Of a stretch of DNA of 64,000 bases, positions 31,671 through 44,385 are shown in pieces. The stretch spans positions 119,075-183,074 of the forward strand of contig JBBEBG010000001.1 of the NCBI GenBank assembly GCA_040882465.1, in the 5' to 3' direction. The stretch comes from Gemmatimonadota bacterium. Its GTDB lineage: Bacteria; Gemmatimonadota; Gemmatimonadetes; Longimicrobiales; Gaopeijiaceae. Both the position numbers and the translations under genes were made by a program. Position 1 is the stretch's first letter, and each line of letters begins with the position of its first letter. Under the pieces are notes generated by a model, which saw only the letters and a list, made by a program, of their open reading frames with translations, had not been told where the DNA came from and ran no database searches.

Positions 31671-31997
31671 ATGAGACCGATTGAAGATTACCGAAGGCAC
31701 GTCGGCATGCGGGAAGGGACACATCACAAGGCGACACTCTTTCGAAGCGACCGTCTCCTCCTCGGGCTCAACTGCCTCGAGCCAGGGCAATCCCAGGCGG
31801 TCCACCGGCACGCGGGGCAGGACAAATTTTACCTGGTCATGGAGGGGCGCGGGAAGTTCACGGTTGGCCGTTCCCTCGTCGAAGCCGGACCCGGGGAAAT
31901 CGTCTGGGCGGCCGCGGAGGAAGACCACGGGGTGGAGAATCAGAGTGCCGAGCGCCTCGTTCTCGTGGTGGGAATCGCTCCGGCGCCTTTGCCCTGA
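31671..31997 (+). CDS. Single-domain cupin
   Basis: 108 residues. Cupin motif 1 reads LEPGQSQAVHRHAGQDKFYLVMEGRGKF with His, His and Glu-like metal ligands. Motif 2 is AGPGEIVWAAAEEDHGVEN. A compact RmlC-like barrel, probably metal dependent; the substrate is unknown. It stands alone on the plus strand in a 170-base divergent gap. Confidence 0.8.
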   Translation: MRPIEDYRRHVGMREGTHHKATLFRSDRLLLGLNCLEPGQSQAVHRHAGQDKFYLVMEGRGKFTVGRSLVEAGPGEIVWAAAEEDHGVENQSAERLVLVVGIAPAPLP

Positions 31998-32048: not shown

Positions 32049-32831
32049 TTACATCCCCGGGCAAGGCTGGACGGGAATCTGCACCGGGCGGTACCCGTAG
32101 TTCGGCTCACGCAACTCCGCGCCCGTCGCCTCGAAGTACTCCTCCCAGAAGCGGCGTACGACCTGCGATCGGTCGTTGTCGTCCACGGCGCCCACCACGA
32201 CCACGCAGAGCCCCGATAGATCGGGGAGGGTTCGCGCCGCCGCCTGCCTCGCCACCCAATCGGCGGGCGGCATGCGGACAAGGCCCTCCATGTTCATGAT
32301 CTCATTCGCCTGGAGCATGTCCGAGTAGAGCACGAGCGTGGACAGGTGTCCGGGATTCACGGCCAGCTCCTCGTCCACCAGATGAAGCGTCGAAAGGATG
32401 TCCGTACCGCGAATCTCCTCCCGCCCCGCCGGATCGGTGAAGATTCCCACGTAGTCGCGGGCGTCTTGAAGGAACCGGGCAAGCGTCACCGAATCGCGCG
32501 GCATGGTCCGGTCCGGAAACTCGCGTTCCGGGACCTGCTGGGCCCAGCGATGCGGCTCCTCCACGAGCGAAAGCTGGAGGATCTCGAGGGCCACGAATCG
32601 GTCCCCGTGCGTGAGGCGCCGCATCCGGTCGCGGGTCAACGAGGCGGCGTGCGCAAGCTCGTGCTCCAGGATCGAGGACGAACGATCGAACGCGAAGATC
32701 ACCAGGGAGGGCGGGTTCAGGGGGTCCGAAGCCTGGGCCAACCGCTCCCCGGGGAGCTCGCTGCACCCCGACGCGATCACGATCGCGAGAAGGACCGCCA
32801 CCGCGAGCGCAACTCTACGGCGGGTCAGCAT
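32049..32831 (-). CDS. VWA-type lipoprotein (MIDAS motif), partner of upstream membrane and AAA+ genes
   Basis: 260 residues. Lipobox ASGC with Cys at 23 after a hydrophobic run, so lipid-anchored. Immediately after the anchor, LVIFAFDRSSSILEHEL carries the DxSxS metal-ion-dependent adhesion motif (Asp 49), and LSTLVLYSDMLQANEI matches the later VWA strand with Asp. These are hallmarks of a von Willebrand A fold, though divergent. It overlaps the 4-TM gene by 7 bases. VWA proteins frequently pair with MoxR-type AAA+ ATPases, and the neighbour two genes upstream is an AAA+ ATPase. Confidence 0.75.
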   Translation of the reverse strand: MLTRRRVALAVAVLLAIVIASGCSELPGERLAQASDPLNPPSLVIFAFDRSSSILEHELAHAASLTRDRMRRLTHGDRFVALEILQLSLVEEPHRWAQQVPEREFPDRTMPRDSVTLARFLQDARDYVGIFTDPAGREEIRGTDILSTLHLVDEELAVNPGHLSTLVLYSDMLQANEIMNMEGLVRMPPADWVARQAAARTLPDLSGLCVVVVGAVDDNDRSQVVRRFWEEYFEATGAELREPNYGYRPVQIPVQPCPGM

Positions 32832-34390
32832 GAGAAAGCCACCTCCTCGTTGAACTGCGACCGGAGTGCATCGAACCTCGCGGAGAGCGTATTGCGCTCC
32901 TTCACGTACTCCTCGGGATCTCGCAGCGTCAGCCCTCCCGCGGCCTCCAGCGCCTCGACGTCGAGGCGGAGCGGTGTGCGGAAGGCGGCAATCGCGTGGG
33001 GATCCAGCCGCCGCGCCCGCCCGTTTTCAGACCTGTAGGTCGCGAGGACGGAATCGAGCTGGTGCAACGCCGAACGCCATTCCATGGCGTGCCCTCCCGC
33101 CGAGAGCGTGCGGAGCGCTCGGGCCTCCTTCATAACGTCTGCGAGAAGCTGCGCCGTTTCCTTGGCACATTGCTCACCCTGGTCGGCGAAGGCCTTTCGA
33201 TCTTCCTCGAAGGGATGCTCGTTGAAACTCTCCGATCGTCCGTCCCTCCGATGGAAATACGCCGCAGAGATCGCGCAGAGCACCAGCGTCAGATTCAGGA
33301 GAAGAATCGGGACGTTCATCCGCGACATGGAAAGCGAATATTCGCGGAGCTCCGTCGCCGCGTTCTCCATGTCCTCGGCGCGGTTCGTCAGCTCGTTTGC
33401 GGAGAGGATCTCTCCATCCACGCGCAGCCACCCGGCCTGGCGGCGAAGTTCTTCGACCTGCGCCATGTCGTTCGTGTATCTTTCGGCACCCACTTCGCCC
33501 AGCTGAACCCGGGCCTGAAAGAGGACTCCGAGGACCAGTACGAGCCCGACCGCCGAGAGCACCAGGGGCACGATGTTTTCGCGGGCCGAACGGCTCTGGA
33601 CGGTATTGAAGTGTCCTCGCCGTTCACCCTGCATCACTAGATCCCGGAGCGAATGCCCGAAGAAGTGTCCGAGCACGCAAAGTAATGTGATCACACCTGC
33701 CGCAAGAAGGGCGGCGTCGGGGCGGAAGATGATGTGCGCCCCGACTCGCTCCAGCCCCGCGATCCATCCCGTGGAAGCCTCGGTAAGAAGCCGGATCTGC
33801 CGCTCCGTGAGGGGGTCCCGGGGTAGGAGCGTGCCGAATACCGGCGCGTTCGCGAAAAACTCGACGACCCCCAGAAAAAAGAGGGCACCGGCGTAGACGG
33901 GAGTGGGAAGCCCCCGATCCCGGCGTGCCCCCTCGCTCTCCAGCTCTTTCGTGACCTCCCGGCGGCGCATCTCCCGGCGCGCCTTGAGGCGCACGAGCTC
34001 ATTCGTGAGGCGCTGGAATCGGTCCACGCCGAGATTCGCCTGCGCGAGTGCGTCTGCGAGGCGCTCTTCGTGCTCCGCTGCCGCGTTCACCAGCCCCCGC
34101 CGCTCTCTCGACTGCCACCGCGCAAAGAAGGCCGTGCAGCGGTTCTTCAGCTCGATTTCGGACTCTGTCGGTCCCATGGATTCGGGTGCCGGCACGCCGC
34201 TGGCTGCATCCGCCCGCGCGATGCGTCTGGCCTCCTCGCGGAGCCTATCGACTTCCGCCTCGAAGGCGTCCTGCTGCCTGCTCCCCAGGTCCACATAAGG
34301 GGCGGTTCCGTTACCGGTCGGCGAGGAGGCTTCCTCTGTCGCTACGGGCTCCGACTCCTCGAGCCAGGACGCGCGAGATCGCTCAGCCAT
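32825..34390 (-). CDS. Large protein with four TM helices and coiled-coil segments, unknown function
   Basis: 521 residues from MAERSRAS, which overlaps the stop of the ATPase gene. Residues about 40-170 are Glu/Arg/Ala-rich and likely helical or coiled. TM segments are at roughly 175-200, 230-255, 280-300 and 350-370. The last ~130 residues are again Glu/Arg-rich and soluble. No catalytic motif is seen. It lies between the AAA+ and VWA genes with overlaps on both sides, so it is probably their membrane scaffold. No known family recognised. Confidence 0.7.
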   Translation of the reverse strand: MAERSRASWLEESEPVATEEASSPTGNGTAPYVDLGSRQQDAFEAEVDRLREEARRIARADAASGVPAPESMGPTESEIELKNRCTAFFARWQSRERRGLVNAAAEHEERLADALAQANLGVDRFQRLTNELVRLKARREMRRREVTKELESEGARRDRGLPTPVYAGALFFLGVVEFFANAPVFGTLLPRDPLTERQIRLLTEASTGWIAGLERVGAHIIFRPDAALLAAGVITLLCVLGHFFGHSLRDLVMQGERRGHFNTVQSRSARENIVPLVLSAVGLVLVLGVLFQARVQLGEVGAERYTNDMAQVEELRRQAGWLRVDGEILSANELTNRAEDMENAATELREYSLSMSRMNVPILLLNLTLVLCAISAAYFHRRDGRSESFNEHPFEEDRKAFADQGEQCAKETAQLLADVMKEARALRTLSAGGHAMEWRSALHQLDSVLATYRSENGRARRLDPHAIAAFRTPLRLDVEALEAAGGLTLRDPEEYVKERNTLSARFDALRSQFNEEVAFSC

Positions 34391-35819
34391 GATCGCCTTC
34401 CCCCTCCCCATTGTCGTGCAGGCTGTTACGTCCGTTTCCGTTGCCGCTGCCGTTCCCCTCGGCCCGGAGTTGCGGGGTGTTGATGAAGTACGCCAGGCAG
34501 GCGTCCATCATCGCCTCCTCGGTCAGGATGGGCGGCAGGCTCCGGTATTTTGCCTGGTCGCACACGTCGGCGATCAGGTCTCCCGGATGGCAGGAACGAG
34601 GTTCGATTCCGCGCCTCAGATAGAACTCGTCGAAGACAAGGGTGACTGCGCTCTCCTCGAACTTGATCTCCCTACGGGCGCACATGCGGCGGAAGATCTC
34701 CCCGAACTGTTGCCTCGAAGGATTCGGCATCAGAAGCTTGTACCGGATCCGGCGGAGAAACGCCTCTTCCGCGAGGTCAGCCGGATTCAGGTTGGTCGCG
34801 AAGAAGACCAGACAGTCAAAGGGCACTTCGAGCTTAAAGCCACTCGCGAGCCCGAGGTAGTCAGTTCCCCGGTCCAGCGGGATCATCCACCGGTTGAGGA
34901 GGTCCCGCGGACGCACCCGCTGACGGCCGAAGTCATCGATCACGAAGACGCCCCCGTTCGCCTTCATTTGGGGCGGCGCGGTGTACACGCCCGCCTCGTT
35001 GGTCTGGTGGAGCTCGAGCGCGTCGAGGGTGAGCTCGCCTCCCACGACCACGGCCGGCCTCCTGACTCGCGCGAACCGCGGATCATGCAACGATACGTCC
35101 CGGAGTAGCGCCGAGCGCAACCCTGGCGACAAACCTTCACTTTCGCTCTCAGCAGGATGGTGCACATCCGGATCGTAGATCTGGATCACTTCACCATCCA
35201 TTTCGACGGCGTGCGGAACGTAAATTGCGCCACCCATGATCTGGGACATCGCGAAGGCGATCTCCGTCTTGCCGTTTCCGGGCTGGCCGTAAAGAAAGAT
35301 GGACTTTCCGGAGTTGATCCCGGGCCCGAGACGGTCGATAAATTTCTCGTCCAGAACGAGATGGCTGAGCCCCGCATGAATCCGGTCGCGAGGGATGGGA
35401 TCGTTTCGCACACTCTGCACAGCGATCCACCAGCGATACGCCTCACGCGTGACCGGCGCCGGCCCGACATATCCGTTCGCCTCGCGGAGCTCGCGGGCGC
35501 GGGCACGCCCCTCCCCGGTCAGGTCGAAGACGTAAGACCGACGCCCGTGCCCCTCCACCCCTCGGACCTCGAGGAGGCTCCGCTTCTGGAGGGGAAGGAG
35601 CTGCTCGTCGAGGATCGAGAAGGGGAGCTTGATCCGACCGGCCAGATAGTCCCCGGACCGGGCGCCATCAACGTAAAGGACCTTCAGAACAAGGTCTGAA
35701 ACGAATGTGGCGGACAGGCCCGTCTCGGCCAGGGTCTCCGGTGCGATCGGATACTCCAGCCCTTCGGCTCTTCGGCCGGCGGCCTGCCGATAAGCGTTGC
35801 GAACGATTTCAGTTTGCAT
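34383..35819 (-). CDS. AAA+ ATPase (MoxR/RuvB-like), N-terminal helical domain, Gly/Asn-rich tail
   Basis: 479 residues. I chose MQTEIVRN because GGAGGAAATC precedes it. The N-terminal ~130 residues look like a winged-helix region (RGVEGHGRRSYVFDLTGEG). Walker A GQPGNGKT is at 178-185, Walker B reads GGVFVIDDFGRQRVRPRD, and ATNLNPADL matches sensor 1 followed by FLRRIRYKLLMPNPS. The C-terminal tail GNGSGNGNGRNS resembles the Gly/Asn repeats at the start of CpaE. It heads a three-gene overlapping module directly after the Tad genes; a chaperone-like role in pilus assembly is inference. Confidence 0.85.
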   Translation of the reverse strand: MQTEIVRNAYRQAAGRRAEGLEYPIAPETLAETGLSATFVSDLVLKVLYVDGARSGDYLAGRIKLPFSILDEQLLPLQKRSLLEVRGVEGHGRRSYVFDLTGEGRARARELREANGYVGPAPVTREAYRWWIAVQSVRNDPIPRDRIHAGLSHLVLDEKFIDRLGPGINSGKSIFLYGQPGNGKTEIAFAMSQIMGGAIYVPHAVEMDGEVIQIYDPDVHHPAESESEGLSPGLRSALLRDVSLHDPRFARVRRPAVVVGGELTLDALELHQTNEAGVYTAPPQMKANGGVFVIDDFGRQRVRPRDLLNRWMIPLDRGTDYLGLASGFKLEVPFDCLVFFATNLNPADLAEEAFLRRIRYKLLMPNPSRQQFGEIFRRMCARREIKFEESAVTLVFDEFYLRRGIEPRSCHPGDLIADVCDQAKYRSLPPILTEEAMMDACLAYFINTPQLRAEGNGSGNGNGRNSLHDNGEGEGDHG

Positions 35820-35845: not shown

Positions 35846-36229
35846 CTACCGCCCGGAGGCTCCCCCCTGTGAGTGCCACTCGATCTCGTCCCCTTCTTCC
35901 GTTCCGCTCCGTCCGATCGCGCCTACCGGAAGCTCGAGTGCAACCCGGGCATTCCCGTGCATTCGTGTCCGGGAACCCGGTGAAAGCTCCGGGTACGAAG
36001 CCACGACGCGCCGCTCCTGATCGAGGAGGAGGACGTCGAGCGCATACTTCATCCCGTACATATGCACTCCCCCGCTCGGAAGGATGAGGAGTCCCTCTCC
36101 TTCCTCGAGCTCCGGATGTCCGAGCAGTCCCTTGAGGCGGCTGAAAAATCCGTCCGCCAGCGCAATCCGGTCACCGAGCAAGTGTCCACGCGTCCGATTC
36201 ACGACCGTCATCGTGTGCTGGGCACCCAT
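35846..36229 (-). CDS. DUF192-family protein
   Basis: 127 residues. The core has FFSRLKGLLGHPELEEGEGLLILPSGGVHMYGMKYALDVLLLDQERRVV, the usual DUF192 strand and loop pattern. Family function is unknown; members often occur near secretion or pilus genes. Its ATG shares one base with the tadC stop codon (TGATG), so it is coupled to the Tad operon. No signal peptide, unlike some family members. Confidence 0.8.
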   Translation of the reverse strand: MGAQHTMTVVNRTRGHLLGDRIALADGFFSRLKGLLGHPELEEGEGLLILPSGGVHMYGMKYALDVLLLDQERRVVASYPELSPGSRTRMHGNARVALELPVGAIGRSGTEEGDEIEWHSQGGASGR

Positions 36230-37170
36230 CAGGGAACGCCCCCCATGACGCCGAAAAGTTCTCCGATCCGGAAGATCGCCGGGCCGAGAATCACGATAAA
36301 AAGCGATGGGAAGATGAAAAGCACGATCGGAATGAGGAGCTTCACGGCGAGTTTGGCTGCCGCCTCCTCCGCCATCTGGCGCCGCCGTGTCCGCGATTCA
36401 TCCGCGTGAATTCGAAGTGCGTGCGCGATCGAGGTCCCGAAACGATCCGTCTGGATCAGCATCGAGACGAAGCTCCGGACCTCCGCGAGCCCGGTGCGGT
36501 CGCCCAGGTGCCGAAGGGCGTCGTCCCGGGGCGTTCCGGCTCGGATCTCCAGGCTAACCAGGACGAATTCCTCCGAAAGGGCGCTGCTCACCCGATCGAT
36601 CTCCTCCCCAACCCGCACCAGGGCTTGATTGAGCCCGAGTCCCGCCTCGACACACACGACCATGAGGTCGAGTGCGTCGGGAAGTGCCCGCTGGAGCTCG
36701 TCCTGGCGCCGGCGCATCTTCCGCTTGACCGCCATGAAGGGGACCATCCACCCGAAAAGGAACCCCGCCGCGACCATGAAGAGGCGGTTCTGTGGCGACA
36801 CTCCGAAGATTGCGGCCGCGACGATCCCCAGGAAAAGAAAGATGGCCGCCAGCGCTACACGAGTCCCCATGAAGATCAGACCGGCACTGGGGTGCCTGAA
36901 TCCGGCATGGAGAAGTGTGTCGCGGAGCTTCTTTTTCCCGGCCGCATTGCTCCCGACGCGCGCCCCAAAAGCCTCGAGGAAGTTTTCGAGCGACTCGCGC
37001 TGGGCCCTCCGGCGACGACGCTCGCGCACCTCCTGCACGCCACCGTTGGTCGCCAGAGACTGAAGCCTCCGGCGGACGAGACGCGTGTCGGACTGCGTCA
37101 CGAGCTGTGAGCCGCCCAAAACGAGCAGCGTCACCGAAATGGCCGTGAGGCCGACGACGAACCAGATCAT
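36229..37170 (-). CDS. tadC: Tad pilus inner-membrane platform protein TadC
   Basis: 313 residues of the GspF/TadC family. About three or four hydrophobic segments, a cytoplasmic loop with MVVCVEAGLGLNQALVRVGEEI and SFVSMLIQTDRFGTSIAHALRIHADESRTRRRQMAEE. Partner of TadB in the platform that works with the CpaF ATPase. It lies 37 bases after tadB. Confidence 0.9.
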   Translation of the reverse strand: MIWFVVGLTAISVTLLVLGGSQLVTQSDTRLVRRRLQSLATNGGVQEVRERRRRRAQRESLENFLEAFGARVGSNAAGKKKLRDTLLHAGFRHPSAGLIFMGTRVALAAIFLFLGIVAAAIFGVSPQNRLFMVAAGFLFGWMVPFMAVKRKMRRRQDELQRALPDALDLMVVCVEAGLGLNQALVRVGEEIDRVSSALSEEFVLVSLEIRAGTPRDDALRHLGDRTGLAEVRSFVSMLIQTDRFGTSIAHALRIHADESRTRRRQMAEEAAAKLAVKLLIPIVLFIFPSLFIVILGPAIFRIGELFGVMGGVP

Positions 37171-37207: not shown

Positions 37208-38221
37208 CTAGTACTTGATATCCACCATCCGGCGAATCACAAAAAAGGCCATCACCATCATCCCGAGGCCGAGTGCGAGCATCATCCGTCCGAGCGGTTC
37301 GACGAACATGGGGGTCATGTACTCCGGGTTCACCATGTACATCCCGACGGCCGCGACGAACGGCGCGGCCGCGACGACGAGCCCAGTGATCCGTCCATGG
37401 GCGGTCTTCGTCTTCACGTCGCGCTTGAAGCGGAAGCGGCCTCGGATCACGCTCGACAGCCCATCGAGGCTTTCGGCCAGGTTCCCCCCGGACTCGCGCT
37501 GGATGAGGACCGCAGTCACGAGAATCCGCACGTCCACGATGTCCACTCGGTCCGCGAGACCCAGGAGGGCATCCTGGATCGGAAGCCCGAAGCGCTGCTC
37601 TTCGAAGACTTGGCGGAACTCGGATGCAATCGGCTCGGCGCCCTCTTCGGAAACGACTTCGAGCCCGGATGCCAGCGAGTGACCCGCCCGCGCCGCCCGC
37701 GCCAGGAGATCGATCGCATCCGGAAATCCCTCTTCGAATGCGGCGAAGCGCCGGTTCCTCTTGATCTTCAGGAAGCCGATGGGGATGTATCCCCCCAGGG
37801 CTGCCCCCGGGAGCGCCGCGATGAGATTGCCGGTCAGGACGAAGACGATCCCCGCGAGCACCACTGCGATACCGACAGAGGCCACGAGGATCGTCGGGAT
37901 GCTCAGAGCACGGATTCCCGCCTGGTCCAAAAGGCGCTGGAGGTCATCCCGGTGGGGAAGTCGGACCACAATCGCTTCGAGCCAAGGGGGAACCCCACTT
38001 CCTTCCTCCGCACGGAGAAGGCTTCCCGCCTTTCGCGCGTCATCTTTGCCCTTCTGCACACGTGCCGCCGAGATTTCCCGGAGTGCGCGGGATGCGGACT
38101 GCGCCCGCAGCCAGCGGCGCGCTCCCTCCCAGAGGAGTCCGATAGCGACCGTGCCCAGCGCGACGACGATGAAGGCCGTGATCGCGAGGATCAGCCCGCG
38201 AGAATTCAGGAGTTCTGACAT
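37208..38221 (-). CDS. tadB: Tad pilus inner-membrane platform protein TadB
   Basis: 337 residues, GspF/TadB type, with an N-terminal TM (LAITAFIVVALGTVAIGLL), a paired internal TM region and DAIDLLARAARAGHSLASGLEVVSEE plus TAVLIQRESGGNLAESLDGLSSVIRGRFRFKRDVK. It starts 8 bases after cpaF. The C-terminus contains two further TMs. Confidence 0.9.
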   Translation of the reverse strand: MSELLNSRGLILAITAFIVVALGTVAIGLLWEGARRWLRAQSASRALREISAARVQKGKDDARKAGSLLRAEEGSGVPPWLEAIVVRLPHRDDLQRLLDQAGIRALSIPTILVASVGIAVVLAGIVFVLTGNLIAALPGAALGGYIPIGFLKIKRNRRFAAFEEGFPDAIDLLARAARAGHSLASGLEVVSEEGAEPIASEFRQVFEEQRFGLPIQDALLGLADRVDIVDVRILVTAVLIQRESGGNLAESLDGLSSVIRGRFRFKRDVKTKTAHGRITGLVVAAAPFVAAVGMYMVNPEYMTPMFVEPLGRMMLALGLGMMVMAFFVIRRMVDIKY

Positions 38222-38229
38222 GGCGGCTC

Positions 38230-39660
38230 CTACCGGCCCCGCGCCGGCATGTCGGAGAAGAGTGTCTCTTCCAGGTTGATCCCGACCGCCTGGAGCCGTT
38301 CCGCAGCGCGCGGGCGTATCCCTCGTGCCCGGAAAGCTCCCGTAACGGATCCGTCTTCGCCCACGCCCTTCCTCTCGAAGAGGAAGAGGTCCTGCATGGT
38401 GATGACCTCGCCCTCCATCCCGACGACCTCCGAAATGTTCATGACCTTCCTCTTCCCGTCCGAAAGGCGGGAGAGGTGGATCACGATGTCGATGGCCGAC
38501 GCGATCTGCCGGCGCATCGCGGATTCCCCGAGGCTCATTCCGGCCATCTGGATCAGCGTCTCCAGGCGGCCGAGGGCGTCCCGCGGCGAGTTCGCGTGGA
38601 GGGTCGTGATGGACCCGTCGTGCCCGGTATTCATGGCCTGAAGCATGTCGAGGGCCTCGGCGCTCCGGACCTCCCCGACGACGATCCGGTCGGGGCGCAT
38701 GCGGAGGGCATTGATGACGAGCTGGCGCTGGTCCACCTGCCCGCGACCTTCGATGTTCGGCGGACGGGTCTCGAGCCGAACCACGTGGGGCTGACGGAGC
38801 TGGAGCTCCGCCGAGTCCTCGATGGTCACGATTCGTTCGTTCGCGGGAATCGCGTCGGAGAGGACGTTCAGGAAGGTCGTCTTCCCTGAGCCGGTTCCCC
38901 CCGAGATCAGGATGTTCAGTCGAGCTGCCACTGCGGCGCGCAGGAAGGTCAACATGGACTCGCTGATCGAGCCGTTTCGAATGAGATCCTCCGCTGAGAG
39001 CACGTCTCGACGGAACTTACGGATCGAGATGTGAGGACCGTCGAGCGCGAGCGGGGGGATGATCGCGTTCACGCGCGAGCCGTCGCGAAGCCGTGCGTCC
39101 ACCATCGGCGACGAGTCGTCGATACGGCGGCCGACCGCCGACACGATCCGGTCGATTACCTGGAGGAGGTGCTGGTTGTCCCGAAAATTGATGCTCGACT
39201 TGTAGAGGCGACCGTTCCGCTCCACGTACACCGAATTGTAGCCGTTCACCAGGATGTCCGAGATGGACTGGTCCTTGATTAACGGTTCGAGTGGGCCGAG
39301 GCCGAAGATTTCGTGGACCACCTGCTCCACGATTTTCTCCCGCTCCTCCATGTTGAGGGGAGCGCTTTCCGTCGCCAACATCTGGCGGACGATGCGTCCG
39401 ACCTCCGTCTCGGCCTCTTCCTGATTGCGCTCGCTCAGCGAGCTCAGGTTCAGGCGCTCCAGAAGCTTCCGGTGGAGCCTCGTCTTGATTTCCTGGAATT
39501 CGGTGGAGCCTTCGTTCCCTTCCTCGTCGACCCCTTCCGGATTCCAGATGGCCTCGAGAGTCTCCGGGATCGCGGGGAGGTCGGAGGGATTCCAAACCGC
39601 TCCGCGCTCGTGCCCGGGACTGCTCACGGAATTCGTCTTGCCGCGCGCGAACACGCTCAT
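38230..39660 (-). CDS. cpaF: Tad/Flp pilus assembly ATPase CpaF (TadA)
   Basis: 476 residues. Secretion ATPase with an N-terminal helical part, a central [16 protein letters not shown] segment, Walker [11 protein letters not shown] (252-261), Asp/His boxes ([35 protein letters not shown]) and Walker [29 protein letters not shown]. It powers pilus polymerisation at the inner membrane. The ATG overlaps the cpaE stop (ATGA). Confidence 0.96.
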
Positions 39661-41021
39661 CGGTTGCTACCCTTGGTTGCGAGCTGCGAAGTGAATCGGG
39701 TCGTTCGGTCCTTTGGGACCTGGCCGCCGCGCTTCCCACTCAACAGGCTACCGAAGAAACCGCCTTTCTCGTCTTCGGAGGGCCCCATCCCGGTAATCCG
39801 CGCGGCAAGCTTTCGGACGTCCTCTCCATATTTCGACTTCTTGTTCAGCACGACGGGCCGCCCTTCGTTGATCGAATCCATGATCGGGCGGTAGTCGTTC
39901 TGGAGAGTGTGGTAGACCTTCATTCCCAGCGTCCGCTCCACTTCGCCCACGCTGATGGGGAGGGAGGGGTTGAAGCGGTTCACGATGGGACGGATCCAGT
40001 TATCGGGTCGTTCCCCGGCGAGTCCCTTCAGAAGGGGAAGCGACCGGGTGACGTTCCGAAGCGACTGGAGATCCGCCGTGCAAAGTAGGTAGATCTGGTC
40101 CGACGCCTCGAAGGCGTTCATGGTGACCGGATTCAGCGTCTTCGGGGCGTCCGCGACGATGTAGTCGTAATGCTCCTTGAGGAAGCCGAGGATCATCCCG
40201 ATCCTTTCGCCGTCCACACTGTGGAAATCCGCCGGCTGATATGGAGCCGAGAGGAGCTCCGTGCCGGATTCGTCGCGCTCGATATATGAGGCTAGGAGTC
40301 CCTCGTCCACGCGGTGATAGTTCCGCACCAGATCCACGCTGCTGAAGCGCGGCTCCATTCCCAGAAGGAGTGCGGTCTCACCCAGCTCGAGATCCAGGTC
40401 GACGATCAAGGTGCGCTTTCGCGTCAACTGATGGATGGCGACCGCGAGATTCACCGCGAAGGTGGTTGCGCCTGAGCCGCCCTTAGGGCTGAATACCGAC
40501 AAAAGCTTTCCGACCTCCGCCCCATTTCCAACCGTGCGTCCGGATTTCCCGGCCTTCTTCTGAAGCCGTTCGATCACGCCGGAAAGGCGGTTGGATTCGA
40601 GCGGCTTCGGGAGAAACTCCTGGATTCCCGCCTGCATCGCCTGGAGGAGGATCTCCGGCGAATCCGCGCTCCCCGACGCCACGATCGCGCGGCCGAGGGC
40701 CGAATCGACGAGGAACTGGGCGAACTTGAGACCGATCTGGGGATCCGACTCGAGATCCACAAAAACGACATCGGGATCGAGGCGGCGTAGAGCCTCCAGG
40801 TGCGAATCCGTGATCGAGGTGAACGGCTCAGCCACCTCGAGCGCCATACGCACGTCGGCCGAGGGCGGAAACATCTCCACCAGCCGTCGTGCGAATTCCG
40901 GGTCCGTGGACACGATGGCGCTAATCAACGCGCTGTGTCCGTTCCCGTTTCCGTTTCCATTGCCGGTGGGGTGTCCGTTCCCCTGGCCGTGTCCCTGTCC
41001 ATTCCCCGATGCGTTCGTCAC
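39657..41021 (-). CDS. cpaE: CpaE/TadZ-type localisation protein, receiver-like plus MinD-like ATPase
   Basis: 454 residues. Residues 1-29 are a Gly/Asn/His low-complexity repeat. Residues about 30-155 form a receiver-like domain (VVFVDLESD). From about 170 a MinD/ParA-like domain follows, with KGGSGATT (180-187), [17 protein letters not shown] and [14 protein letters not shown]. The P-loop has Ala where the catalytic Lys would be, as in many CpaE/TadZ proteins, so ATP turnover is doubtful. It positions the Tad machine at the cell pole in studied species. Confidence 0.92.
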
Positions 41022-41108: not shown

Positions 41109-42542
41109 TCAGCGGTCGTTCGTCGCGTCGTTCACTTCGTCCACGGTAGATTCGACCTCCACATCCTGTTCGCTCTCCTCGGCCGGATCTCGCATGAAGC
41201 GCATCCAATCCCAGGTGCCGGGCTCACCAGTCGGAATCTCCGGCACTAGGGCATCCGGACCAACCAGGAAAGGCGTCACGAGAACGAGTAGCTCGGTCTC
41301 GGACTGCTGCACCGCGGTGGAGCGGAAAAGCGCACCCAGGATCGGAATGTCTCCGAGGATCGGGATCTTCCTCACGCTCTCGGTCATCTGGTGATCCAGG
41401 AGTCCAGCGATCGCGAACGTCTGCCCTTCCTGGATCTCGACCACCGTGCTCGCACGGCGGGAGAGGAGGACAGGGATCTGGAACCCCGAGATCTCGAGAC
41501 CGCCCGAAAAGTCGAGGGTCGAGACCTCGGGCTGGACCGACATCCGAATGGCGCCCGCGTTCGTGATTTCGGGCGTGAAGCTCAACCGGATCCCGAATTC
41601 GCGGAATTCGATACTCACACCACCGGCTGCGGCGCCCCCCTGCACGACCGGGAAGGGGAACTCCCCACCCGCCAGGAAGGAGGCCGTCTCGCCCGGAAGG
41701 GTCATGAGGTTCGGCTCGGCGAGACTCTTGAAACTCCCCTCCGTCTGGAGCGCTTGGATCAGCGCGGAGACATTCGACTGCTTGTGGAAGAGGAAAAAGT
41801 TGACCGCGTCGGAGAACGTCTGGTCGGGCCCCGGAGGGTCGTTCAGAAGGTTCCCGCTGGGCGGCACGACGCCCCCCGGCGAGAGGATCCCCTCATCGTC
41901 CCCGCGGAGGTTGAATGGATCGACCCGCACGATGTGCGCGCCGAGGTCGCGAATGGCGTTTCGACTCACTTCCGCGAAGCGAACCTGCAGGAGCACCTGT
42001 CCTCGGTCCGGGACCTGGATGTAGTCCACCACCTGCGCGTCGCCCTCCAGGCTCGTGGCCAGCGCGAAAGCGCGCGCAGCCGCGACCGAATTCATGGTCT
42101 CGCCGGAGAGAATCAGGGTGTTTCCGACCGCGGTCACTTCGAACGACTCGTCCGGGAAAACCCGGGTGAACTCGCTCTGAAGGCTCGCCGCATCCCTGGT
42201 GACTCGCACTGAGTAGCTCGTGCGGACGCCGTTGATGTCCCAGAAGAGAAGCGTCGTCGTGCCGGGGGTAACCCCGTTCACCACAATCTCCTGGGCGGAA
42301 ACGGGGACCACATCCGCGATTGCGGGATCCCCGATCAGTATTCTCTGGAGAATGACCGGATGCGCGACCACGATGGAGTTTCCTCTCGCCACGGTCAGCT
42401 GCTGCATCTGCTGCGCTTGGGACCCTTCAGGGAGCGTCAGGAAAGCGAACCCTAGGAGCGCCCACCTCCACCCCACGCACCTACGTGCGTGTCCGCGACC
42501 AATCCCGCGTGGGAGTCGCGAATTCCTCTCTGCCTCTCTCAC
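41109..42542 (-). CDS. cpaC: Tad/Flp pilus secretin CpaC (RcpA)
   Basis: 477 residues. Signal peptide with hydrophobic core ALLGFAFLTLPEG and likely cleavage after SQAQ. An N-terminal pilus-assembly domain (LTVARGNSIVVAHP, IVVNGVTPGTTTLLFWD) precedes the secretin core with RVRFAEVSRNAIRDLGAH-like text, SFKSLAEPNLMTLPGETASFLAGGEFPFPV and the C-terminal VRKIPILGDIPILGALFRSTAV. It forms the outer-membrane channel. It overlaps cpaB by 4 bases. Confidence 0.94.
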   Translation of the reverse strand: MREAERNSRLPRGIGRGHARRCVGWRWALLGFAFLTLPEGSQAQQMQQLTVARGNSIVVAHPVILQRILIGDPAIADVVPVSAQEIVVNGVTPGTTTLLFWDINGVRTSYSVRVTRDAASLQSEFTRVFPDESFEVTAVGNTLILSGETMNSVAAARAFALATSLEGDAQVVDYIQVPDRGQVLLQVRFAEVSRNAIRDLGAHIVRVDPFNLRGDDEGILSPGGVVPPSGNLLNDPPGPDQTFSDAVNFFLFHKQSNVSALIQALQTEGSFKSLAEPNLMTLPGETASFLAGGEFPFPVVQGGAAAGGVSIEFREFGIRLSFTPEITNAGAIRMSVQPEVSTLDFSGGLEISGFQIPVLLSRRASTVVEIQEGQTFAIAGLLDHQMTESVRKIPILGDIPILGALFRSTAVQQSETELLVLVTPFLVGPDALVPEIPTGEPGTWDWMRFMRDPAEESEQDVEVESTVDEVNDATNDR

Positions 42543-43414
42543 GAGCCACCTCCTCCGCTTGCCTCAAGGGTACGATCTACATCGGACGTCGAACGCTCGG
42601 GTCCGCGATATACTTCGAGCTGCAACTGCGTCGGCGCCTGGGGCGCCGGGGTCGTGGCGGCCGGGCGCGGCGCAGTGGACCTTACCACCGGCTGCGGGCG
42701 ACCCGCGATGACCTGACTCGCCGTGATTCCGGGAGTGGACACCGAGTCCATGTCGAGGGGGTTTCTGAGGGCAAGCTGGAGACGCCCGTTCGAGTGTGAA
42801 ATGGCGAGCTGCTCGGCTTGGTCCGGAGCTACGAGAACCGTGACGACCGCGACCTCCACCGGATTCCCATCGGGGTCCCGCTCGAGCGACTGCCCGGCCG
42901 AAACCACTTCGATGTTCTGGAGCACGAGGCGCGTCTGCGCCTCGTCGCTCGATCCGGTCCGATCCATCGTTACGACCACGTCCACGCGGGTCCCCGGAAG
43001 GACGAAGCCGGCGACGCCGACCACCTCGTCCACGCGAACCGACATGGCGCGTTTCCCTTGAGGAATCATGATCGGCATCCCGCCGCCCGATTCCACGCTG
43101 GCCAATTTCTCAGAGAGGAGCGGCTCGTTCGTCCGGACGGGCTGCAGGAGCCCCCGTCCAAGCACGTCCGCGGCCGAAGTGCTGTAGCCCGCGGGGAGGT
43201 GGCTCGCCGGCCACTCCACCATGGTCACGTCTTCCGGCCCCAAGAGAGTCCCGGCGTTCATGTCTCGGGCGGCAACCGCGACACTCGTCATGCCCGTCTC
43301 CGCCGCCTGAGCCACGTTCGACTCGGGAGTTCGGAGCACGCGCATGGCGAGGAGAGCCGCAGCTCCCCCGGCCGCCACCGCCAGGATCAGTAATATCATT
43401 GCCTGTCTTCGCAT
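42539..43414 (-). CDS. cpaB: Tad/Flp pilus assembly protein CpaB (RcpC), SAF domain
   Basis: 291 residues. N-terminal signal anchor (ILLILAVAAGGAAALLAMRV), a SAF domain SVAVAARDMNAGTLLGPEDVTMVEWP and the RcpC domain with IPQGKRAMSVRVDEVVGVAGFVLPGTRVDVVVTM. The C-terminal ~60 residues are Ala/Pro/Thr-rich and non-conserved. A periplasmic partner of the secretin. Confidence 0.92.
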   Translation of the reverse strand: MRRQAMILLILAVAAGGAAALLAMRVLRTPESNVAQAAETGMTSVAVAARDMNAGTLLGPEDVTMVEWPASHLPAGYSTSAADVLGRGLLQPVRTNEPLLSEKLASVESGGGMPIMIPQGKRAMSVRVDEVVGVAGFVLPGTRVDVVVTMDRTGSSDEAQTRLVLQNIEVVSAGQSLERDPDGNPVEVAVVTVLVAPDQAEQLAISHSNGRLQLALRNPLDMDSVSTPGITASQVIAGRPQPVVRSTAPRPAATTPAPQAPTQLQLEVYRGPERSTSDVDRTLEASGGGGS

Positions 43415-43546: not shown

Positions 43547-44077
43547 TCAGAAAAACCAGGCGAAGACCGCACCCGCCGAAATCGCCAGTGCGTACGGAAC
43601 GGTCACCGCACCGGCTGAGTGAATCGTGAGCCAACCGTCCGAATCCCCCTTCTTCCATCCCGTGAGCGTTCCACGGCCGAGCGTCATCGCCATGAAGAAG
43701 AGATTCCTGAACGTCCGACCCACTGCGCGGCGTCGAATCATCTCCACGGCCGCGAGAACTCCGCCCACCAGCGCCATCGCGATGAATCCGCTGACCAGGC
43801 GCTGCGGACCCAAAAACGCACCGAATGCCGTGAGGAGCTTGACGTCCCCACCCCCCAACCCTCCCACCAGAAAAAGCGGAAGAGCGAAGAGGAAGCAGAT
43901 CGCCGCGCCCGCCAGCGCCATCCCGACCCCGGGGAGTCCATCCGCCAGTCCCATGAGAACCGCGAAGCCCAGGGAAGGGATCGTGAGCGCGTTCGGCACC
44001 CGCCGTTCGCGGAGATCGAACCATGACGCTGTGATAGCCACCAGGATCAGTGTCCCGCCGATCATCCATTCGAACAC
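43547..44077 (-). CDS. cpaA: Prepilin peptidase CpaA/TadV
   Basis: 176 residues from a GTG start with AGGAGG seven bases upstream. Polytopic A24-type aspartyl protease with the first catalytic Asp near WFDLRERRVPNALT and the second in GGLGGGDVKLLTAFGAFLG. It cleaves the Flp leader. It lies between cpaB and flp, the standard place. A longer upstream frame that would overlap flp was rejected. Confidence 0.92.
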   Translation of the reverse strand: MFEWMIGGTLILVAITASWFDLRERRVPNALTIPSLGFAVLMGLADGLPGVGMALAGAAICFLFALPLFLVGGLGGGDVKLLTAFGAFLGPQRLVSGFIAMALVGGVLAAVEMIRRRAVGRTFRNLFFMAMTLGRGTLTGWKKGDSDGWLTIHSAGAVTVPYALAISAGAVFAWFF

Positions 44078-44196
44078 GTCGTTTCCTCCTGGACTGCACC
44101 TACGAGAGTCTGCCAGACTGCCCAGCGGCCAGAACGGAAGACCGGAAAGGCCTCCCTCATCCTGACCGCTGGGCCGCCAGAGGCACACGTGATGCG

Positions 44197-44385
44197 TTAG
44201 GGCGCACCGCCGCCACCGCCACCGAACAGCGCGTTGGTGACCTGAGTGAACCCACCCGACACGGCGTTCGCGAACGGCGTAAGGACAGCCATCACGACGA
44301 TCGCCACGAGGACGAGCAGCATGGCGTATTCCGCCAGGTCCTGCCCCGACTCGTCCTGCCAGAGACTCCTGAACATCTGCGACAT
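44197..44385 (-). CDS. flp: Flp-type pilin
   Basis: 62 residues. Leader ends in ESG, then QDLAEYAMLLVLVAIVVMAVL: cleavage after Gly14 leaves the Glu5-Tyr6 signature (Glu19, Tyr20 here), followed by the hydrophobic helix and a Gly-rich end. SD GGGAGG with a five-base spacer; a hairpin GGCC-TTTC-GGCC (plus strand, 44397-44408) directly abuts it. First gene of the Tad locus. Confidence 0.94.
   Translation of the reverse strand: MSQMFRSLWQDESGQDLAEYAMLLVLVAIVVMAVLTPFANAVSGGFTQVTNALFGGGGGGAP

Follow-up and report, generated by a model that had tools for sequence, protein, structure and literature searches.

Tad linkage of an AAA+ ATPase family and its relation to a four-helix membrane protein/VWA lipoprotein pair in Gemmatimonadota

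Do the unassigned genes that close a Tad pilus operon encode a part of the pilus machine? The question is raised by a 64,000-nt stretch of a Gemmatimonadota genome assembly (the window; positions given without a locus or contig name are those of this stretch), in which the final genes of a Tad operon, on the − strand, encode an AAA+ ATPase, a protein with four transmembrane (TM) helices (the 4-TM protein) and a lipoprotein with a von Willebrand factor A (VWA) domain. The original prediction, made from the sequence alone, had joined the three into a single unrecognised Tad complex. One part of this proposal stood and the other did not: the ATPase is linked to Tad loci, whereas the 4-TM and VWA genes form a separate unit that sometimes occurs without the ATPase or without Tad. 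The description of the locus was confirmed, save for its remark on TadD/E/F (below): the genes read on from tadC and a DUF192 gene and, counted using an internal ATG at 34390, overlap by 8 bases (ATPase/4-TM) and 7 bases (4-TM/lipoprotein), and their products contain a Walker A motif (GQPGNGKT), four TM segments and a DxSxS motif, respectively. None of the three proteins passed a Pfam or NCBIfam family cut-off, and PADLOC returned Walker A matches only. The genes were found again in dozens of genomes, with approximately 45-68% identity and their order kept; chance adjacency to the Tad operon was rejected on the grounds of this recurrence, the conserved order and the co-occurrence statistics given below.

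The gene neighbourhood of the ATPase was examined in a phylum sample of 249 Gemmatimonadota genomes, with E below 1e-30 taken as a strong match. Strong matches were present in 28 genomes, in 23 of which tadC lies inside the 1.5-kb flank of the ATPase gene; two further genomes are limited by contig ends (one with DUF192 at the contig end, the other at the contig start). RcpC, used as a marker of Tad, occurs in 25 of the 28 (5.3 expected; Fisher p 2e-18). Outside the phylum, relatives were found in 75 plasmid records, 73 of which cover at least 80% of the length, the proteobacterial proteins showing 33-40% identity over most of it. One relative is encoded on a plasmid of Rhizobium etli CFN 42 (NC_007765.1:352677-353846). 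All eight proteobacterial loci opened place the relative within a tad locus, either between the prepilin peptidase and cpaB genes (Burkholderia, Paraburkholderia, Photobacterium) or after tadB/tadC (two Rhizobium, Ensifer, Sinorhizobium, Pseudorhodobacter). These proteins belong to the same family as the window ATPase and are annotated as “AAA family ATPase” or similar, nothing more specific; they differ in their operon place, before cpaB in the first three genera, and in lacking a 4-TM/VWA pair. The predicted linkage to Tad loci was thus borne out, and the association is that of the ATPase alone, across Gemmatimonadota and the alpha-, beta- and gammaproteobacteria (four classes). On the basis of linkage and co-occurrence, it is very probable that one class of Tad machines, present in Gemmatimonadota and Proteobacteria, has this ATPase as a genuine accessory component.

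No paper that names the ATPase or the 4-TM/VWA pair was found in the open-access literature searched. Seef et al. note many genes of unknown function in Kil clusters (PMC8460266), and current models of the Tad machine, such as the in situ structure from Caulobacter (PMC13170226), contain Cpa proteins and minor pilins and no such ATPase. AAA+ proteins, VWA proteins and Tad accessory genes are known kinds of element, while their combination and a Tad ATPase family that crosses classes appear to be new. Conservation of an unnamed ATPase in four classes means that some Tad machines have a part not named in the literature searched.

In addition to Walker A, the ATPase contains a Walker B motif (VIDDFGRQ) with D-D in place of D-E, a sensor 1 motif (ATNLNP) and the RRI arginines. 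Residues G178, G181, G183, K184, T185, D295-D296, N343 and R356-R357 are invariant in an alignment of 15 sequences from Gemmatimonadota and Proteobacteria. Walker A, Walker B, sensor 1 and an arginine finger together assign the protein to the AAA+ superfamily, the roles of the arginines being deduced from their position. Its description as MoxR/RuvB-like did not hold at the level of families. Membership of the MoxR family (AAA_3, PF07726) was rejected, as hmmscan gave no match at E up to 1, and a PF07726 search across the source genome matched seven places, the ATPase gene not among them. The TIP49 match is confined to Walker A (16.3 bits vs a cut-off of 23.8), and no RuvB family appeared in the match list. 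Profile comparison with hhalign gave 95.7% for classical AAA and 17% for MoxR, and the score against the classical AAA model (PF00004) was 13 bits, with a cut-off of 21.2; by these measures the ATPase is related to classical AAA proteins yet lies below the membership cut-off. A VWA gene nearby, as in MoxR-type systems, is present here two genes downstream and absent from most relatives.

The N-terminal region of approximately 120 residues looks like a winged helix in its sequence pattern. The ATPase is distinct from both the pilus motor TadA and the localiser TadZ. The match to the anti-phage ATPase IetA covers 25-57 residues in the region of Walker A, with a score of 24.1 bits vs a cut-off of 510; an origin in a defence system was rejected, because this match is Walker A alone and phage genomes gave no match. 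Some genomes carry more than one Tad ATPase copy, either at a distance of approximately 17-19 kb or on different contigs (L038 and L039 of G125, the L044 contig of G097, and G120). Two divergent homologues, in L053 and L055, adjoin dehydrogenase-like and agmatinase-like genes with no Tad genes nearby, contexts from which a second role of the family seems possible.

The genes that follow the ATPase vary. The 4-TM/VWA pair follows it in eight further loci retrieved from Gemmatimonadota, whereas 11 others (L045-L052, L056-L058) have in this place a member of a single homologous family, approximately 205-255 aa long with one predicted TM helix (for example L045:10319-11035 and L046:9416-10117), the C-terminal part of which appears repetitive by eye; one member tested gave no Pfam family. 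Two loci differ again: the gene after the ATPase appears to encode a J-domain protein in L044, and in L040 its product is a membrane protein with several passes. The simplest reading of these downstream genes is an ATPase with an exchangeable, lineage-specific membrane partner, which fits the presence of a membrane-anchored protein after the ATPase in the 11 loci without the pair.

The VWA assignment of the lipoprotein was upheld by structure prediction. Neither the Pfam VWA models (E up to 1) nor the PDB yielded a sequence match, so the fold was predicted, and the assignment rests on fold and motif because the sequence is too divergent for the Pfam models. An AlphaFold model built from 29 orthologues reached a mean local confidence (pLDDT) of 82, and the top Foldseek matches were mostly VWA domains (probability 1.00, E from 2.7e-6); by prediction, the protein folds as a VWA domain with an intact metal ion-dependent adhesion site (MIDAS). 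The MIDAS residues D49, S51 and S53 (of the motif D49-R-S51-S-S53), T143 and D171 show no variation among 29/29 orthologues, nor does Cys23 of the lipobox, and the residue before Cys23 is Gly or Ala in all of them. Cys209 is also invariant, and Cys257 is present in 28 of the 29, the last row being an incomplete sequence. At +2, after the lipobox cysteine, Gly or Ser predominates and Asp does not occur; by the +2 rule of Escherichia coli, which may not hold in Gemmatimonadota, the lipoprotein would be anchored in the outer membrane. The lipoprotein shares a Tad-linked VWA domain with a MIDAS with TadG/CpaL, the minor pilin of the Tad pilus tip, but lacks the N-terminal pilin-like (Tad) segment of the latter (no match to PF13400) and occurs in a genome that also holds a VWA-bearing TadG. 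CpaL, a candidate mechanosensor, is a precedent for the regulation of surface sensing by a VWA protein with a Tad link (PMC12607857). With the pair, the envelope would contain another VWA protein in addition to TadG/CpaL, a point of interest for the question of how contact with a surface might be reported by Tad pili.

Hydrophobic segments of the 4-TM protein span residues 167-185, 226-244, 273-291 and 360-378. Its AlphaFold model (pLDDT 80) is nearly all helix and comprises a cytoplasmic coiled coil (76-156), TM1 (163-188), TM2 (224-257), a TM3 that runs on into a predicted periplasmic helical hairpin (approximately 292-357), TM4 (359-379) and cytoplasmic helices (392-459). A Foldseek search of the PDB with this model found nothing below 1e-3, the matches being mainly coiled coils, and the protein belongs to no family in Pfam, NCBIfam or PADLOC.

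When the 4-TM alignment was searched against 84,980 species genomes, 32 loci were found, all labelled Gemmatimonadota save L063 and two unclassified bins; among plasmids there was no close 4-TM relative outside Gemmatimonadota. The L063 contig is labelled Gammaproteobacteria, and its 4-TM and VWA proteins group inside Gemmatimonadota, so it is probably misbinned. Wherever the contig is long enough, the VWA gene directly follows the 4-TM gene, and the ATPase gene lies directly upstream of the pair in 22 of the 32 loci. The pair stands alone in six loci, and in L086 the contig begins within the 4-TM gene; five of these seven genomes have the ATPase on another contig, where in three (L124, L125 and the L040 contig) it was read beside Tad genes. 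Of the 13 genomes in the 249-genome sample that have the close form of the pair, 10 also have the ATPase, where 1.5 would be expected (p 1e-8). The exceptions number three and include G151, where the ATPase gene is cut by the contig end, and G101, which begins at the 4-TM gene. Trees of the pair separate Tad-linked, solo and distant forms, and are compatible with a single origin of the Tad-linked pair, with weak support (34/93 and 82/69).

A weak match in Caballeronia led to a cassette encoding an OmpA-family lipoprotein, a multi-TM protein and a VWA-like secreted protein, found in Caballeronia, Paraburkholderia, Pantoea and Acidiphilium (several classes of Proteobacteria) and in Aliarcobacter (L126:4319-8399, L131-L135) and annotated mostly as hypothetical except for OmpA. 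Its VWA gene directly follows the multi-TM gene, as in the 4-TM/VWA pair, and hhalign shows homology between the two VWA proteins (98.6%, E 8e-16, 197 columns). The cassette differs in that an OmpA lipoprotein is encoded upstream, the MIDAS is degenerate (DQT) and no lipobox was seen in the VWA protein; its annotated stretches contain neither Tad genes nor the Tad ATPase. Although the VWA partners are homologous, hhalign gave only 1% for the two membrane proteins (4-TM vs multi-TM). The kinship with the cassette supports a general envelope role for the 4-TM/VWA pair.

We consider the chances about even that the whole two-module explanation, a Tad accessory ATPase together with a coupled 4-TM/VWA pair, is correct, while the coupling of the ATPase to the pair, taken by itself, is somewhat doubtful. 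The most likely target of remodelling by the ATPase would be an inner-membrane component of the Tad machine or a membrane partner dedicated to the ATPase. In some Gemmatimonadota families this partner of the cytoplasmic ATPase would be the pair: the 4-TM protein is predicted to extend coiled-coil arms toward the cytoplasm and a helical hairpin toward the periplasm, and the lipoprotein, probably fixed to the outer membrane, would hold a metal-dependent ligand-binding VWA domain in the periplasm. Via the 4-TM protein, ATP hydrolysis could drive the MIDAS to form or break contacts with the pilus channel or the envelope around it, and pilus assembly might in this way be gated or the state of the pilus reported. 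Together, the ATPase and the pair may be a part of the pilus machine that is optional and has gone unrecognised. In its most specific form, this explanation holds that an unrecognised Tad accessory AAA+ family powers exchangeable membrane partners and that the partner in some Gemmatimonadota is an envelope-spanning 4-TM/VWA complex in which hydrolysis gates a periplasmic, metal-dependent contact with the pilus channel; we propose this only tentatively.

Several findings weigh against the coupled two-module explanation. The remaining three of the 28 ATPase genomes carry divergent homologues (37-41% identity) away from Tad genes, and most taxa with the ATPase lack the pair. In the sample, 22 genomes are RcpC-positive but have no ATPase, which therefore marks a subset of Tad machines and is not needed by Tad pili in general. 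The predicted template modelling score of the 4-TM model (pTM 0.51) does not fix its domain arrangement, and operon neighbours can be co-regulated without touching. Moreover, a distant form of the pair (E 1e-14 to 1e-59), again 4-TM then VWA, is present in six more genomes without the ATPase, five of them without RcpC. The pair is thus a unit of its own, with a Tad link limited to its close form, and the three genes are no single ancient conserved module; the pair is a Gemmatimonadota addition that is also present without Tad. That it is an independent envelope module, carried by chance at the Tad operon end in some lineages and working without the ATPase, is a possibility we take seriously without favouring it. 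The distant pairs, the constant company of the two genes away from Tad as well as beside it, and the homologous VWA protein of the proteobacterial cassette away from Tad all speak for such independence. They have to be set against the excess co-occurrence of the close form with the ATPase, the exceptions to which include contigs cut at the ATPase position, and against the genomes that retain both the pair and the ATPase when these are split apart.

It is unlikely that the ATPase regulates tad expression, with a winged-helix-like N-terminus binding DNA and an AAA+ core sensing envelope signals via the membrane partner. Linkage to the tad operon would suit an operon regulator, as would the winged-helix pattern, which was read by eye; the protein, however, matches no DNA-binding family in Pfam or NCBIfam and is not of the sigma-54 activator family, and winged helices of AAA+ proteins often bind protein. 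Least probable of all is a classical MoxR-VWA chaperone pair devoted to cofactor insertion or to the maturation of one protein, with no tie to pilus mechanics. Such a pair is suggested by the shared operon of an AAA+ protein and a VWA partner, and NorQ/NorD, RavA/ViaA and CbbQ/CbbO likewise have an AAA+ gene near a VWA gene with a conserved MIDAS. In those systems the ATPase is of the MoxR type, whereas here it fails the MoxR model and compares far better with classical AAA (96% vs 17%); in addition, the VWA protein lies across the membrane, with the 4-TM protein in between. Being secreted, it could not dock directly in the manner of NorQ/NorD, and the ATPase is usually found without an adjoining VWA partner. 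The MIDAS of NorQ/NorD is known to be needed for the client, so its residues can serve client function instead of ATPase binding (PMC9976466), a role that would fit a VWA domain separated from the ATPase by the membrane. A cytoplasmic AAA+ protein is also paired with a periplasmic MIDAS-containing VWA protein in the Bat aerotolerance operon (MoxR, DUF58, BatA/BatB; PMC5700661). The latter differs in that the BatA VWA domain belongs to a TM protein, in the presence of DUF58 and in its other AAA+ family. The NorQ/NorD and CpaL parallels are analogies, and prove nothing for the mechanism suggested here. To our knowledge, no Tad linkage has been described for the Bat operon.

Features of the operon are summarized in Table 1.

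Table 1. Genes of the Tad operon in the window, in order of position
Feature	Position	Strand	Remarks
VWA lipoprotein	32049..32831	−	260 aa
4-TM protein	32825..34390	−	521 aa
AAA+ ATPase	34383..35819	−	478 aa; N-terminal region of ~120 residues with winged-helix-like pattern, then AAA+ core
DUF192 (COG1430)	35846..36229	−	between tadC and the ATPase gene; kept in most related Tad loci
TadC (T2SSF)	36229..37170	−	family-model match
TadB (T2SSF)	37208..38221	−	family-model match
TadA/CpaF motor ATPase	38230..39660	−	family-model match
TadZ/CpaE	39657..41021	−	family-model match
RcpA/CpaC secretin	41109..42542	−	family-model match
RcpC/CpaB	42539..43414	−	TIGR03177, 226.7 bits
Prepilin peptidase	43547..44080 (start approximate)	−	translation with FDLRERRVPN and GGGDVK; relatives hold the same position
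Flp pilin	44197..44385	−	sequence read by eye (MFRSLWQDESGQDLAEYAMLL...)

The lipoprotein gene closes the operon, and a cupin-like open reading frame (ORF) at 31671-31997 is convergent to it. A search for operon promoters and terminators revealed no sigma-70-like sites, and terminator-like sites were at chance level. The original prediction had placed the three genes where absent TadD/E/F genes would be expected. The absence proved local to this contig (TadD was not searched for): a TadE-TadE-TadG trio lies on contig C17 of the same genome (C17:63259-65985, equivalent to L059:7260-9986), and a role of the three genes as a TadE/F/G replacement was therefore rejected. Nor is the ATPase a substitute for TadE/TadG, as the annotated proteobacterial loci hold TadE/TadG genes of their own. 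The TadG of the source genome (L059:8706-9986) comprises a Tad segment and a VWA domain with the MIDAS DQSGS. The Tad system of this genome is thus split, with the trio far from the main operon.

The DUF192 gene is a regular member of Tad operons in Gemmatimonadota (L034-L058), where it lies between tadC and the ATPase gene; it was not found in the Tad loci L039, L041 and L043. Directly upstream of one distant 4-TM/VWA pair are genes for a PilZ-domain protein and then a bactofilin-like ORF (L113:10188-12194). A separate MoxR/Mg-chelatase-like ATPase gene adjoins a VWA-like ORF a few kb from a Tad locus (L046:2246-6104).

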